Of a DNA stretch of 64,000 bases, positions 884 through 56,076 are shown piece after piece. The DNA comes from Sulfodiicoccus acidiphilus. GTDB lineage: Archaea > Thermoproteota > Thermoprotei_A > Sulfolobales > Sulfolobaceae. The position numbers and the translations under genes are program-made. The stretch spans positions 1,116,001-1,180,000 of the forward strand of contig NZ_AP018553.1 in assembly GCF_003967175.1 (NCBI RefSeq), written 5' to 3'. How positions within the stretch are numbered: position 1 is the stretch's first letter; the number at the start of each line of letters is the position of its first letter. The notes under the pieces were generated by a model. That model made no database searches. It was not told the DNA's origin and was given only the letters and a program-made list of their open reading frames with translations.

Positions 884-1140
884 CACGAACTACCCCGTCC
901 CGACCAGACTTCCCGCTTTGCCACCATTTGCCCGAAGGTGGCGCAGCTCCACAGGAGGACCATTTCGGCTCTACGTTGAACCGATCTTCACCCGCGAGGT
1001 GTCAGACGAGGGGTCCACCACGATAGGCCCAAACTTAGGCTTCTCGGTGGAGTTCACCATGCGGGCCACCATCGTTAAAGGTATTTCGCGAATTCGTGTA
1101 AACTCGAGGGGGCCTCACGGGAGTGTCCCACTGACCTCAT
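884..1140 (-). repeat. degenerate family B IS200/IS605-type non-autonomous element
   Basis: Read on the minus strand, this stretch follows the family B elements found at 20565, 32054, 37555 and 54428. It has a left-end-like CTCCCGTGAGG segment near 1120, a middle segment ending in TGTGGAGCT near 950, and a right end with a GGGCAAA segment, a GACGGGG stem and TAGTTCGTG near 884. It is more diverged than the other copies. Apparent reading frames here are artefacts of this non-coding repeat. The rest of the 697-1389 gap shows no convincing gene. Confidence 0.5.
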
Positions 1141-1347
1141 TAGGATAAAATCCATTGGAACCCTGAACTTTATGTTAAACATTATGAAGAAAGCGGTCGC
1201 AGCCTAGTCTCAGCCATCGAGAAACTGCTTTCTTTCATTGTAGGCTACAACCTAGTAGCATCAGTAAAGGAGTGTAATCTTCTGAGACTTCACGAACCTT
1301 CGTCTGTAAGGGGGAGGGGGAGAGACAGAATTATATTCCAAGCAACC

Positions 1348-20564: not shown

Positions 20565-20871
20565 GTGAACTACCCTGCCCTAACGGACGGGGCTTCCTGC
20601 TTCCTAGCCCCACCTTGCCAACGGTGGAGGGCTCCACGGGCACTGAGGGTCGTTCCAACCCCGATCTCAGTCCTCGGTGTCCCAAATGGGACTAACGATT
20701 GGAGCAGAGGCCGTACCACATAGACCCTCGCTTTAACCGAGGCGTCTCAGTGACGCTTACTCCGTTAGTAACTGTCATTAATATTGTAATCTGCAAACTC
20801 ACACTTAACTGTTTCTATGAGGGGGCCCATCTCCACCCTCACGGGAGGGGTCTTCCGCCCCCTCAACCCCC
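20565..20871 (-). mobile_element. non-autonomous IS200/IS605-type element, family B copy
   Basis: Oriented on the minus strand. The left end at 20871 reads GGGGGTTGAGGGGGCGGAAG with TTAAC just outside. The right end has a GGCAAGGTGGGG segment, then GAAGCAGGAAGCCCCGTCC and TAGTTCAC at 20565. The core stretch GTCACTGAGACGCCTCGG (near 20740) is nearly identical to the copy at 54428, differing at two of 18 positions. No protein is encoded. Confidence 0.75.
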
Positions 20872-21302
20872 GTTAAGACAAAACTTCTTCAGGACGCACC
20901 CACACTTTTTACGAGCCTAAATCTAGCTCAGTCAGCGTGCCTCGACGCTCGCTAGGAAGTATGGTATATGAGTCACGTCTCCTTTCCAAACGAAGACGAT
21001 CGAGTCCACAGAACTAATGCAGAGTGGGAGCGAGCTTCTTAATCATGGATCTTCACCCTCAATCATTAAGAGTAACGTGTGCCTAGAAAGTGGAAGCTCT
21101 TTCCTTGAGGACAGGATGATTAACTTATCGTTAGGGCTTTGAGGATCTAAAACGAGCTATTCCCACTTATGAAGATTATAGCACTCTCAATCCTGCCAAC
21201 TAAGTTGCAGTCCTGAACTCTTAGTGGGAATTGACGGAAGGCTCTGAAAGCAAAGTCTCATCCGAGGAGATAAGTTTGTTTTGAGTCGGAAAAGAGGAGG
21301 AC

Positions 21303-28161: not shown

Positions 28162-28626
28162 ATTCTTCGAAGCTAAACATAATACACTTGGTCTAGATAA
28201 GGTGTGACTATCTAGACGAGATGCTGCAGTAAACTAAAGGTGTACGTTCCTCATCCGACAGTAACACTCAGTTAGGTGGGGTCATCCCGCTAATGGGAAG
28301 GAGATGAACGGGTTCCCCCCAAGACTCTGGTGAAGTTCGATTGTAGAGAATTGAATACACATTCGTAAGAATTGAATGAAGTTCAAACCTTCTCCACTGG
28401 CACCTTCACTAGAGGTAGACTGAAGGTGTATGTGCCGAGCGATCCTCCCAATGGCCTAACCCCGACAGAGGTCCCAACTCCTCCTCAACTTACTCGGGAG
28501 GGGAAGTGAGACCCCTGAGCTTCTACCCTTAGGTCAAGTTGAGTCGCGAACCAGGAAGCCCCTCCCGTGAGGGAACGGTAGTTCACAGTGTAGTGGAATA
28601 AGACCCATACCCCACAGGAAGTCAGA
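28162..28626 (+). repeat. intergenic stretch with a solo family B right end (28546-28588)
   Basis: Downstream of the tnpB element the sequence holds no gene. It ends in GAACCAGGAAGCCCCTCCCGTGAGGG and TAGTTCAC at 28581-28588, a family B right end in plus orientation. Its left end is not recognisable. Confidence 0.4.
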
Positions 28627-32053: not shown

Positions 32054-32321
32054 GTGAACTTACCTTGCTCTCACGGACAGGGCATCGTGCTTCATAACCC
32101 CACCTTGCTTAACGGGTACGGATGGAGCTCCAAGGCTCAGAGGGCCGTTCCGGCCCTGGTCTAGATCTGCCGGTGTCCACACGTCGCCAGATGGGGCAGA
32201 GTGTTACCTCACGGACCCTCGCTCGGAGGCGTCTCGGCGACTCACTCAGACTCAATGACTATAGTCTAGATATTATCGCGAGAACTTACATTTAAACGGG
32301 TCTTCCGCCCCCTTAACCCGC
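32054..32321 (-). mobile_element. non-autonomous IS200/IS605-type element, family B copy
   Basis: Minus orientation. The right end GTTCAC at 32054 is 3 bp after the thiolase stop. It carries GCAAGGTGGGGTTATGAAGCA and a hairpin. The conserved core GTCGCCGAGACGCCTC lies near 32240, and the left end GGGTTAAGGGGGCGGAAG near 32310. It is somewhat shorter (268 bp) and more diverged than the copy at 54428. Confidence 0.65.
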
Positions 32322-32430
32322 TTTAAGATAAAGGATGTGAGTTCCGAGGAGGGAGTCAGATTCCCTGGGCCTGAGTTTCTAAAACCTTAATAGCTCTACT
32401 TCCCACTCCTTCTAAAGGTGAAGGAAAGGG

Positions 32431-37554: not shown

Positions 37555-37833
37555 GCGAACTCACCCTGCTCTAAGGGGTGTGGCTTCCTGCTTCATGGCC
37601 CCCTTTGCCCACGGGCAAGGGCAGAGCTTCACAGACGCTGAGGACCGTCCCAGCCCTGCACGAGATGAGTGCCCACGGAGAGCCATGGGCCGGGGCGGCG
37701 ACGTGTCTCGCGGACACTTGCTTCGAAGCGTCTCGGGGACTCACACCGTCTATGAGTACCATGGTAAGTTTCTTGAGGTTGAATTCAAAAGAGGGGGGCT
37801 ATCCATCCTTCCGGTAGGGGTCTTCCATCCCCC
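37555..37833 (-). mobile_element. non-autonomous IS200/IS605-type element, family B copy
   Basis: Minus orientation, about 280 bp. The left end is at 37833 (GGGGGATGGAAGACCCC, TTAAC outside). The core has GTCCCCGAGACGCTTCG near 37720, then GGCAAAGGGGG and GAAGCAGGAAGCCAC, ending near 37555. Reading frames across it on both strands are artefacts. Confidence 0.65.
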
Positions 37834-37859
37834 GTTAAGATAAATAAAGCGCACATCAC

Positions 37860-38052
37860 TAAAATCGAGACAGTAGTAGAGCATGTCCGCAGGAGCTGAT
37901 CCCACACTCTCTGAGTTGGAGTTAGTGCCGGTGGAGTGTCAACCGTCAGCGACTTCACTTCGCTGAACGGTTACGTGGAACCCCTCTAGGAGAGGTCCTC
38001 TGCTGGGCAAGAAACCACTATGACGCCACCTCGCGAGGGCGAGGTAGTTCAC
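37860..38052 (+). repeat. degenerate family B right half with two hairpins, abutting copT
   Basis: AACCGTCAGCG (37941-37951) pairs with CGCTGAACGGTT (37961-37972, one bulge), and CCTCT/AGAGG forms a second hairpin at 37983-37995. A right end CACCTCGCGAGGGCGAGG then TAGTTCAC finishes at 38052. The terminal GTTCAC supplies the copT stop codon on the other strand. Confidence 0.45.
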
Positions 38053-46556: not shown

Positions 46557-47835
46557 GTAAACTACCCCGTCCTCACGGACGGGGCTTCGGGGTTTCCAGT
46601 ACCCTTCGCGGTGCACCTTCATCTCCCCTTCGGGTTGTTTACCTACCCCCGACCCGTACCTCTCGTTGAGGCACGGGCTACGTTGATCGACGCGTTCAAG
46701 TCGCGGTTACGTACCACACCGCACTTACGTCTGTATTCCCTTCCGTCCGTGCGGGCAACGTGCCCGCATCTGTGACAAGTTCTTGAAGTATTTCTAGGGT
46801 TAATGTATACCACTTTTATACCGTTGATCTTCGCTTTGTACTCTATCATGCTCTGTAGCCTTCTAAACGGCAACGAGTGAAATCTCCTATCGAGTTTCTT
46901 GCTCTCCTTGAATTTCTCCCTAATTCCTGTGAGCTTCTCCACGACTATCACTGGGGAAGGGAACTTTTTAGCGTAATCGACGACCTTCTTGGAGATAACG
47001 TGAAGCTCATGATTTACCATTCTTCTTTCCTTCCCCTTATCTTCACCACGTCGAGCCTCCTCTTTTCCTGGAGCTTCTTCCTTATGTTGAAGTACTCGTG
47101 CCTAATTTCCTTAATCCTTGACCCTTCGAAGAAAGTACCTCTGACGGGTTTTCCGTTAACTAATGCGACCACTGTAGCTAGGTTTCTCTCACCTAGATCG
47201 ATGCCTATAGGAGTTCGTAGTTCGTATTTAACGAACGGTTTCTCGAGGGTGAAATAGGCGTACCATTCTCCATCTCCCTTTACGAGTTCAACTTGTTGTG
47301 TAGACCACTCGCTGTTATCGTTGAGTGCGTCGTTCATTAACTTGCCTTGTCTCTCTCCTAACTGTATTGGGTACCAAACCCCTTCACCGTCCAATTGTAG
47401 GTACAACCAGTAAGGTGTTAATTTAGTGTCCCTCTTCACGAGCTTGAACGCACGGTAGTTCACCCGTATGGATGTACGGTTTATGTGAAACTCTCTTCCC
47501 TCATTTAGTTTCACTAGCTCTACTGCCTTATCTCTCGCTGTTAGTGTAAGTGTGGAAGATAGACCAAACCTCCTTCTAGCCTCTTTGTATGCTTTCTGTT
47601 GAAGGAGTTCCTTATCCCTTATCTTAAAGGAGACGAAGAATTTAACAGCCTTCAAGTATCTCTCTAGGACTACGTTTAGCTTACGCCTCTTCTCTTTATT
47701 AGGATTCAAAATTTTTCCTTTTATAGATATCTTAACTTCGGATTTCAAGGAACATCCCAAATCTTTTTATGTCTGTTTTGGTATTTAATTTATATTTACA
47801 CTCCCCGCCCTTACGGACGGGGTCTCTGGCGAGAA
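46557..47835 (-). mobile_element. IS200/IS605-type element with frameshifted tnpB (parent type of family B)
   Basis: Minus orientation. The left-end hairpin (GACCCCGTCCGTAAGGGCGGGG) is near 47801-47824. One tnpB follows. The right end has the hairpin GAAGCCCCGTCCGTGAGGACGGGG and TAGTTTAC at about 46557. The right end matches that of the family B elements. No tnpA is present. Confidence 0.7.
46643..47760 (-). pseudogene. tnpB: TnpB RNA-guided nuclease, one frameshift
   Basis: About 372 residues in two pieces (47760-47014 and 47020-46643). The RuvC acidic residues are in IGIDLGERNLATVV, VIVVEKLTGIREKF and VRNRDLNASINVA. The zinc ribbon has TCHRCG and a final KCG, but the third cysteine position is occupied by arginine (YRRKCG). 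The break is in ATAAGGGGAAGG near 47030; one added G restores RGKERRMVNHELHVISK. Whether the enzyme is functional after repair is uncertain because of the altered zinc ribbon. Confidence 0.8.
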
Positions 47836-54347: not shown

Positions 54348-54427
54348 CAGTTGAACATGGCTTGAGGAGGGAAGCATTTATTCGCCTTAGTCAATACTTT
54401 CAGTCTGAAAATGAAGTCTATCTTTAC

Positions 54428-54758
54428 GGGGGTTAAGGGGGACGGAAGACTCCATCCGTGAGGGAGGGGATAGATAGCCTTCCCTATATTTGAATTTTTA
54501 AATTAAGATATAAGTTCGCAAGTGATGTATAGATGACAGTCACTGACGGAGTAAGCGTCGCCGAGACGCCTCGGTTAAAGTGAGGGTCTGTGTGGTACGC
54601 TTCTACTTCAATCACCAGTCCCATATGGGATACCTTGAACGTCACGTCTATTGCGGGGTGGGAACCACCCTTAGTGCCTGTGGAGCTCTGCCCCTATCCA
54701 TTGGGCAAGGTGGGGCTATGAAGCAGGAAGCCCCGTCCTAACGGACGAGGTAGTTCAC
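54428..54758 (+). mobile_element. non-autonomous IS200/IS605-type element, family B (best preserved copy)
   Basis: 331 bp, preceded by TTTAC (54423-54427). Left end GGGGGTTAAGGGGGACGGAAG with a hairpin, conserved core GTCGCCGAGACGCCTCGG near 54558, TGTGGAGCTCTGCCC, GGGCAAGGTGGGGCTATGAAG, and the right-end hairpin AGCCCCGTCCTAACGGACGAGG then TAGTTCAC at 54758. The right end matches the tnpB element at 46557-47835. No protein is encoded. Confidence 0.75.
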
Positions 54759-55779: not shown

Positions 55780-56062
55780 GTGAACTACCCCGCCCTCGCG
55801 GACGGGGCGTCCTCGCGGTGAGTCCCGCTCCTCGGAGCGATATCGATCTCCTTGCGTAGCGGAGGTTCAGTGGAACCGTCCTGTGAACAGTACGGGAGAG
55901 GATCACGGAGGGTTTCCTATCGACAGGCGCGAGTTCCCCCAGTCCCGAGGGTGCGACCCAGCTCTTTCAGTTAGGGTCTTAAAATTGTTTTTATTATTAT
56001 AAAAACCTTTCTATAAGAGAGGTTGTCCACCCTCACGGAAGGGGACTTTCCCCCTTAACCCC
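55780..56062 (-). mobile_element. non-autonomous IS200/IS605-type element, family B-related
   Basis: Minus orientation. The left end GGGGTTAAGGGGGAAAGTCCCC is at about 56062 with a hairpin CCCCTTCCGTGAGGG, and the right end CGCCCCGTCCGCGAGGGCGGGG then TAGTTCAC is at 55780. The interior differs from the other family B copies. The left end lies 15 bp from the stop of the GTPase gene. Confidence 0.55.
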
Positions 56063-56076
56063 TAAAAGTTAAATCT

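Follow-up and report, generated by a model that had tools for sequence, protein, structure and literature searches.

The window, a stretch of 64,000 nucleotides from Sulfodiicoccus acidiphilus, contains several copies of a short mobile-element-like sequence, here called family B, whose four clear copies there are 274-337 bp long and carry no transposase (Table 1). The copy considered in most detail was placed at 54428 in the sequence-only reading and is called the 54428 copy below, although alignment with the other copies moves its start to 54422. In these alignments, each element is entered from host TTTAT through a left end of the form C-TTAAC-GGGGG..., which contains a subterminal palindrome, followed by a TATA-like box lying at about -30 relative to the core, the core itself (beginning ATGACAGTCACTGACGGAGTAAGCG...), a variable spacer, and a right end that runs TCGGGGTCGG...GTTCAC and passes directly into host DNA. 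The terminal sequences CTTAAC and GTTCAC are not inverted repeats of each other. Two copies from different genomes, L038 and L046, end at the 3′ side with CCGTTACGGTAGACCC... in place of GTTCAC. The mean identity between genomes was 0.66 for the left end, 0.40 for the promoter spacer, 0.82 for the core, 0.33 for the second spacer, and 0.63 for the right end, which makes the core the most constrained module. A TTWAAA-like consensus lies at -30 to -24, with a TATA-like word starting between -38 and -27 in 58 of 77 copies, and elements that carry a solo tnpB gene have a matching left end and promoter spacing, with the ATG about 30 nt past the same box. Folding of the left end as single-stranded DNA gave z = -4.8 for copy L037 and -3.2 for L004, and -0.9 and -1.7 for copies from the window.

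Table 1. Family-B features in the 64-kb window
Feature	Position	Strand	Remarks
Complete family-B element, 337 bp	54422..54758	+	Limits by analogy with L100, proven by an empty site, and from copy alignments
Host TCTAT, target/TAM position (TTTAT in most copies)	54417..54421	+	Directly 5′ of the left end
Left end with subterminal palindrome	54422..54495	+	Single-stranded DNA fold weak in this copy
TATA-like box, 5′ of the core	54495..54507	+	Family-wide, at about -30 relative to the core
Conserved core, likely forming the structured 5′ part of the predicted transcript	54533..54609	+	Stem GGAGUAAGCGU...ACGCUUCUACUUC, inner hairpin
TnpB omega-RNA-like scaffold, three covarying stem-loops, ending TTCAC	54653..54758	+	106 bits, E=3e-21
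Predicted guide segment, host flank ATTATTTTGAGGATAAGAAA	54759..54778	+	Predicted from TnpB biology (PMC8612924, PMC10640517)
Family-B element, 313 bp	20565..20877	-	Core 20701-20778, scaffold 20565-20664
Decayed family-B element, 274 bp	32054..32327	-	Core 32193-32265, scaffold 32054-32159
Decayed family-B element, 285 bp	37555..37839	-	Core 37692-37762, scaffold 37555-37659
Very diverged family-B relic	884..1144	-	Scaffold 885-974, E=0.057; core 1003-1075, 8.5 bits
Omega-RNA-like right-end relic without core	28494..28586	+	E=1.5e-4

Two covariance models were made, R1 for the core, from 25 copies, and R2 for the right end. In the window, R1, which was derived partly from sequences on which it was tested, matched 20698-20778 on the minus strand (99 bits), 54533-54612 on the plus strand (97.5 bits), and 37689-37762 and 32190-32265 on the minus strand (51.4 and 35.6 bits), with E values from 4e-22 to 2e-6. 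These are exactly the four copies that had been described as clear, and R2 also returned all four, ahead of much weaker matches at 46557-46658, 28494-28586, 55780-55834, and, very diverged, 885-974. The four are of unequal quality: the 54428 and 20565 copies are well preserved, the latter having a near-identical twin at C1:597992-598298, while the 32054 and 37555 copies are decayed and fold poorly. An extra weak right-end match (E=8e-4) at 21019-21124 on the plus strand adjoins the 20565 copy. The diverged copy proposed at 884 is present as a very decayed relic, and the solo right end proposed near 28546 corresponds to the coreless relic in Table 1; a further solo right end proposed at 38015 was not significant (E=1.4).

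The mode of insertion was examined by joining the two flanks of copies in genome G131 and searching for the joined sequence within the genus. Copy L100 interrupts a conserved open-reading frame that is uninterrupted in four congeners (G155, G141, G146, and G175), and the empty-site alignment crosses the join TTATTAT|TTGG with zero duplicated bases, so that relatives with an exact empty site, the evidence called for by the earlier reading, were found for this copy and the elements have defined boundaries. The same comparison of flanks with relatives gave no junction-spanning empty site for the source-genome copies because the relatives are too distant. At the left boundary, TTTAT was counted for 48 copies, a number biased by the inclusion of TTTAT in the search pattern; the empty-site result is free of that bias. 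Such insertion, immediately 3′ of TTAT and with no duplication of the target site, is the signature of IS200/IS605 elements. A classical MITE was considered and fails, as there are neither terminal inverted repeats nor a target duplication. By its anatomy, family B is classed as a PATE-like (palindrome-associated, transposase-free) element of the IS200/IS605 type.

In the source genome (2.35 Mb, one contig), the genome search that had been suggested for the 54428 copy gave 30 BLASTN places, the best full-length matches besides itself being 71-74% identical, and the models gave 19 core (R1) and 38 right-end (R2) matches. Across 31 Sulfolobaceae genomes, R1 found about 140 cores in 9 genomes and in 5 of 11 genera, with a maximum of 40 in one genome; Metallosphaera yellowstonensis MK1 is one of the carriers. 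The distribution of the core among these genomes is patchy within genera, and in the genus g7 it is missing from four genomes, three of which also lack the scaffold. In genomes with scaffold matches and no core, the sampled loci were 3′ ends of tnpB genes whose products are 36-81% identical to the source-genome TnpB. Another genome, G125, yielded 28 matches to the scaffold, the majority of them scoring almost equally at the top, and the one locus fetched (L177) contains a complete tnpB with 81% identity to its source-genome counterpart; these matches are probably a recent expansion of an autonomous element. When the whole element was compared with plasmids and phages by BLASTN, only the right end of tnpB genes was matched, in pNOB8, in the Acidianus two-tailed virus and its relatives, and in an S. 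tengchongensis plasmid. No exact match to a 26-base core pattern was returned by IMG/VR, and on that result the idea that the core lies within longer virus-borne elements was rejected. Both pNOB8 (L171) and the Acidianus two-tailed virus (L172) carry a parent-type TnpB with the scaffold, and carriage of such a TnpB by conjugative plasmids or viruses is a possible route between genera.

The right end of family B was identified from its likeness to solo-tnpB elements. Its approximately 105 nt align with the solo-tnpB right ends of the source genome, pNOB8, and the Acidianus two-tailed virus, and the right ends of both kinds of element fold into the same three stem-loops. In 26 right-end sequences, 33 both-side-changed cells were counted against 10.8 expected, and in the 21 rows without tnpB taken alone, 21 against 9.3, values reached by 0 of 500 and 0 of 1000 shuffles, respectively, counts that are not to be read as probabilities because the copies are related. 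The TTTAT at the left end of family B, in the position of a TAM, is the motif of the cognate solo-tnpB group, as found in solo-tnpB elements of S. islandicus, and SisTnpB1 proved to be an RNA-guided nuclease when assayed with a TTTAA motif (PMC10640517). Rfam gave no match to the core at E<=5 and none to the element above the gathering score, and the only sub-threshold matches placed HgcC on the right ends of L006 and L013, with E of about 0.5; a known RNA was thus discarded as an identity for the core. By alignment, shared fold, and covariation, the right ~105 bp are a complete TnpB omega-RNA scaffold, so that what the sequence-only reading had taken for a right-end hairpin is by these criteria part of a whole guide-RNA scaffold, a point it had missed.

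These same data bear on the possibility that the elements are plain internal-deletion derivatives, in which TnpA would need the terminal palindromes only and both core and scaffold would be passengers kept by recent shared ancestry. PATEs that arose by core deletion are already known (PMC3119063), and many family-B copies, two of them in the window, are decayed. The core, however, is conserved above the ends that TnpA requires while the neighbouring spacers are at 33-40%, and the right-end helices that covary include interior ones, two of the stems being placed well inward of the terminal hairpin that TnpA is expected to require. We regard this explanation as quite unlikely.

Two uninterrupted TnpBs, 72% identical to each other and both with PF01385 and PF07282, are encoded in the source genome at C1:1745793-1747019 and C1:1069798-1071030. 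The parents of family B would be solo, TTTAT-type tnpB elements such as these (at C1:1745785 and C1:1069703) and not, as had been proposed, the tnpB element at 46557-47835 of the window, which was rejected as the parent; its gene is split (248 and 125 aa) and its product has ~35% identity to the true parent over ~98 residues. The right-end hairpin that this element has in common with family B is real (~32 bp, 81%), but generic. The right ends of copy L004 and of the C1:1069798-1071030 TnpB element are 95% identical, that of L056 is 94% identical to a tnpB element in its own genome, and that of L037 from M. yellowstonensis is 99% identical to the local tnpB element, with which it has an unusual alternative stem in common; this tnpB partner, L187 (G072), is N-terminally truncated. 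In L002, L062, and L100, the right ends match tnpB elements of other genomes better. Right ends that track the tnpB of their own genome are therefore, as judged by identity, frequent but not universal. Derivation of family B from solo-tnpB elements that use a TTTAT target/TAM is, as a part of the explanation given below, probable. At L136 (G000:C1:428500-434000), the only intact Y1 TnpA of the genome (C1:430993) adjoins a tnpB-like open-reading frame. The ends of this TnpA element differ from those of family B, and it is flanked by left-end relics of the family-B type.

The core had been described as something other than tnpB sequence and as a possible structured RNA. The first point was borne out, as the core is absent from the tnpB elements examined (L006, L007/L011, and L010) and a BLASTN search of the genome with the core did not place it in the parent tnpB, and its origin as a piece of the parent tnpB was rejected. 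As to structure, single copies fold into a stem GGAGUAAGCGU...ACGCCUCUGCUCC around a hairpin, with z of about -1.7 to -2.2 in the two preserved window copies and L037 and no signal in the two decayed window copies. When 76 distinct copies were fitted to the model, 55 both-side-changed cells were found against 26.7 expected (0 of 500 shuffles), with 84% paired against 33-50% in slid controls. A MAFFT alignment that was not fitted to the structure showed modest covariation (14 of 500 and 8 of 500 shuffles), and RNAalifold predicted no consensus structure for an 80-copy set, an outcome that probably reflects dilution of the signal by old, decayed copies. The compensatory changes support the description of the core as a structured RNA, which must be set beside a weak coding-like signal in one frame.

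That signal is the basis for an alternative in which the core is, or was until recently, a short gene of the leaderless kind (MTVTDGVSVTETPWLKRGSMWYASAP...), put in place of the tnpB body and joined to the C-terminal tail of TnpB, with a micro-protein and not an RNA domain as the conserved product. The frame from the first ATG of the core, which lies ~30 nt past the TATA box as in tnpB elements, has a dN/dS-like ratio of 0.56, against 0.96 and 1.05 for the other two forward frames, its third codon positions are the most variable (151 against 102 and 96), and it is open into the old TnpB tail in L004, L040, L053, L041, and L038. Coding sequence, which the sequence-only reading had named as evidence against its interpretation, is in part what this frame resembles. 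However, just 44 of 77 copies are free of stops over 26 codons, leaving 33 with a stop, and the 54428 copy itself has the ATG-started frame broken by TGA where many relatives have it open. A frameshifting 4-nt deletion in the hairpin loop is common to copies in several genera, with the stem kept in several of them, and the covarying pair 18-75 falls at two positions that are synonymous in the possible frame. The peptide had no Pfam or NCBIfam match, by which a known domain was discarded, and no convincing plasmid or phage relative, tblastn matches to halovirus capsids (E=0.7) being due to chance. Given the stops in 33 of 77 copies, the stem-keeping frameshifts, and the lack of a family match for the peptide, RNA is ranked first and an origin as a short open-reading frame second, and both may hold; the short gene as the whole explanation appears unlikely.

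A core-like segment was found in none of the tnpB elements examined, and IS200-type elements are known to have small RNAs by which transposition is regulated. The core could accordingly be thought to act as DNA or as a separate regulatory RNA unrelated to TnpB, for example, in antisense control of a transposase. Against this, core and scaffold stand together behind one promoter-like box in the well-preserved copies, and the idea seems to us very improbable.

Given the scaffold, the core, and their common promoter-like box, we think it probable that family B is mobilised in trans and works as a stand-alone guide-RNA unit relying on a resident TnpB, with transcription and loading into TnpB as predicted steps. 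The evidence for this at the level of sequence is the anatomy, insertion 3′ of TTAT, helices of the RNA type, and intact cognate TnpBs in the same genome. In such a unit, the tnpB body would have been replaced by the ~77-nt core and a variable spacer, with the left palindrome, the promoter, and the whole right end kept. A Y1 TnpA supplied in trans would excise and insert the element, as expected from IS200/IS605 biology (PMC8612924). Transcription from the left-end TATA box, starting at the first base of the core, would yield an RNA of ~225 nt consisting of the core stem and the omega-RNA scaffold, and a guide of 16-20 nt would then be read from the host flank. Once it had taken up this RNA in trans, a resident solo TnpB would cut the donor site after healing (TTTAT plus guide), and repair after the cut would restore the element, so that a copy without a gene would be retained. 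The core would be the 5′ domain of the RNA, serving, for example, stability, processing, or capture of TnpB; this is the least certain of the steps.

Family B resembles several known systems. Like the PATEs of Haloquadratum walsbyi, its members are short and transposase-free, with near-terminal palindromes of the IS605 type and neither inverted terminal repeats nor target duplication (PMC3119063). Unlike them, family B has a complete TnpB scaffold and a core common to five genera; the 2011 account of the H. walsbyi PATEs, which predates guide RNAs, describes no guide-RNA scaffold or cross-genus core (PMC3119063). With the Sulfolobaceae solo-tnpB elements, family B shares the left-end motif, TTTAT, the promoter-to-start spacing, and a right-end scaffold that reaches 95-99% identity with resident copies (PMC10640517), but it has the core and spacer instead of tnpB. 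Judged by its published description, SMN1 of Sulfolobus islandicus, a 320-bp element moved by ISC1733, is similar in size, host family, and non-autonomous IS605-related mobility, and on that description it is the best-known Sulfolobus relative in kind (PMC3718332). The reRNA/omega-RNA of ISDra2 is made from the 3′ end of tnpB and the right end, with the guide from flanking DNA (PMC8612924), and the RNA predicted here has the same scaffold origin and a guide predicted from the flank, whereas the source of the RNA is a tnpB-bearing element in ISDra2 and an element without the gene in family B. A search of open-licence papers returned no account of a core, scaffold, and promoter-like box in combination. 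What appears to be new is the core conserved across genera, the complete scaffold in an element lacking tnpB, and their joint placement behind a promoter-like box.

A second PATE-like family is represented in the window at 55780-56068 on the minus strand, with 42 BLASTN matches in the genome, most of them near-full-length and 72-91% identical. The element at 55780 had been called a relative of family B, and the two do have a similar left-end motif and terminal right hairpin, but it belongs to a separate family of ~40 copies in which the conserved interior is another one (GAGCTGGGTCGCACCCTC...) and the left flank appears to be of the TTTAA type. The TTTAA-type TnpB group may have its counterpart in this second family. 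A nested pair, with a copy of the second family inside a family-B copy, lies at L024 (G000:C1:2205574-2208612).

More tentatively, and at somewhat less than even confidence, we suggest that the core is a functional module not described before, either a structured RNA or a dual-function RNA/micro-ORF, and that it makes a TnpB scaffold into a guide-RNA gene in its own right, driven by a promoter and acting in trans, through which elements without a gene may hijack the nuclease of their autonomous relatives for retention and cross-genus spread. If this is true, TnpB nucleases would serve, beyond their own transposon, a large number of elements that lack genes and provide their own guide RNAs in trans, which would help to explain how such elements reach tens of copies per genome (up to the 40 core matches noted above). 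Family B would then provide thermophile TnpB guide RNAs that are natural, minimal, and transcribed on their own, in which the effect of the core would be directly testable.
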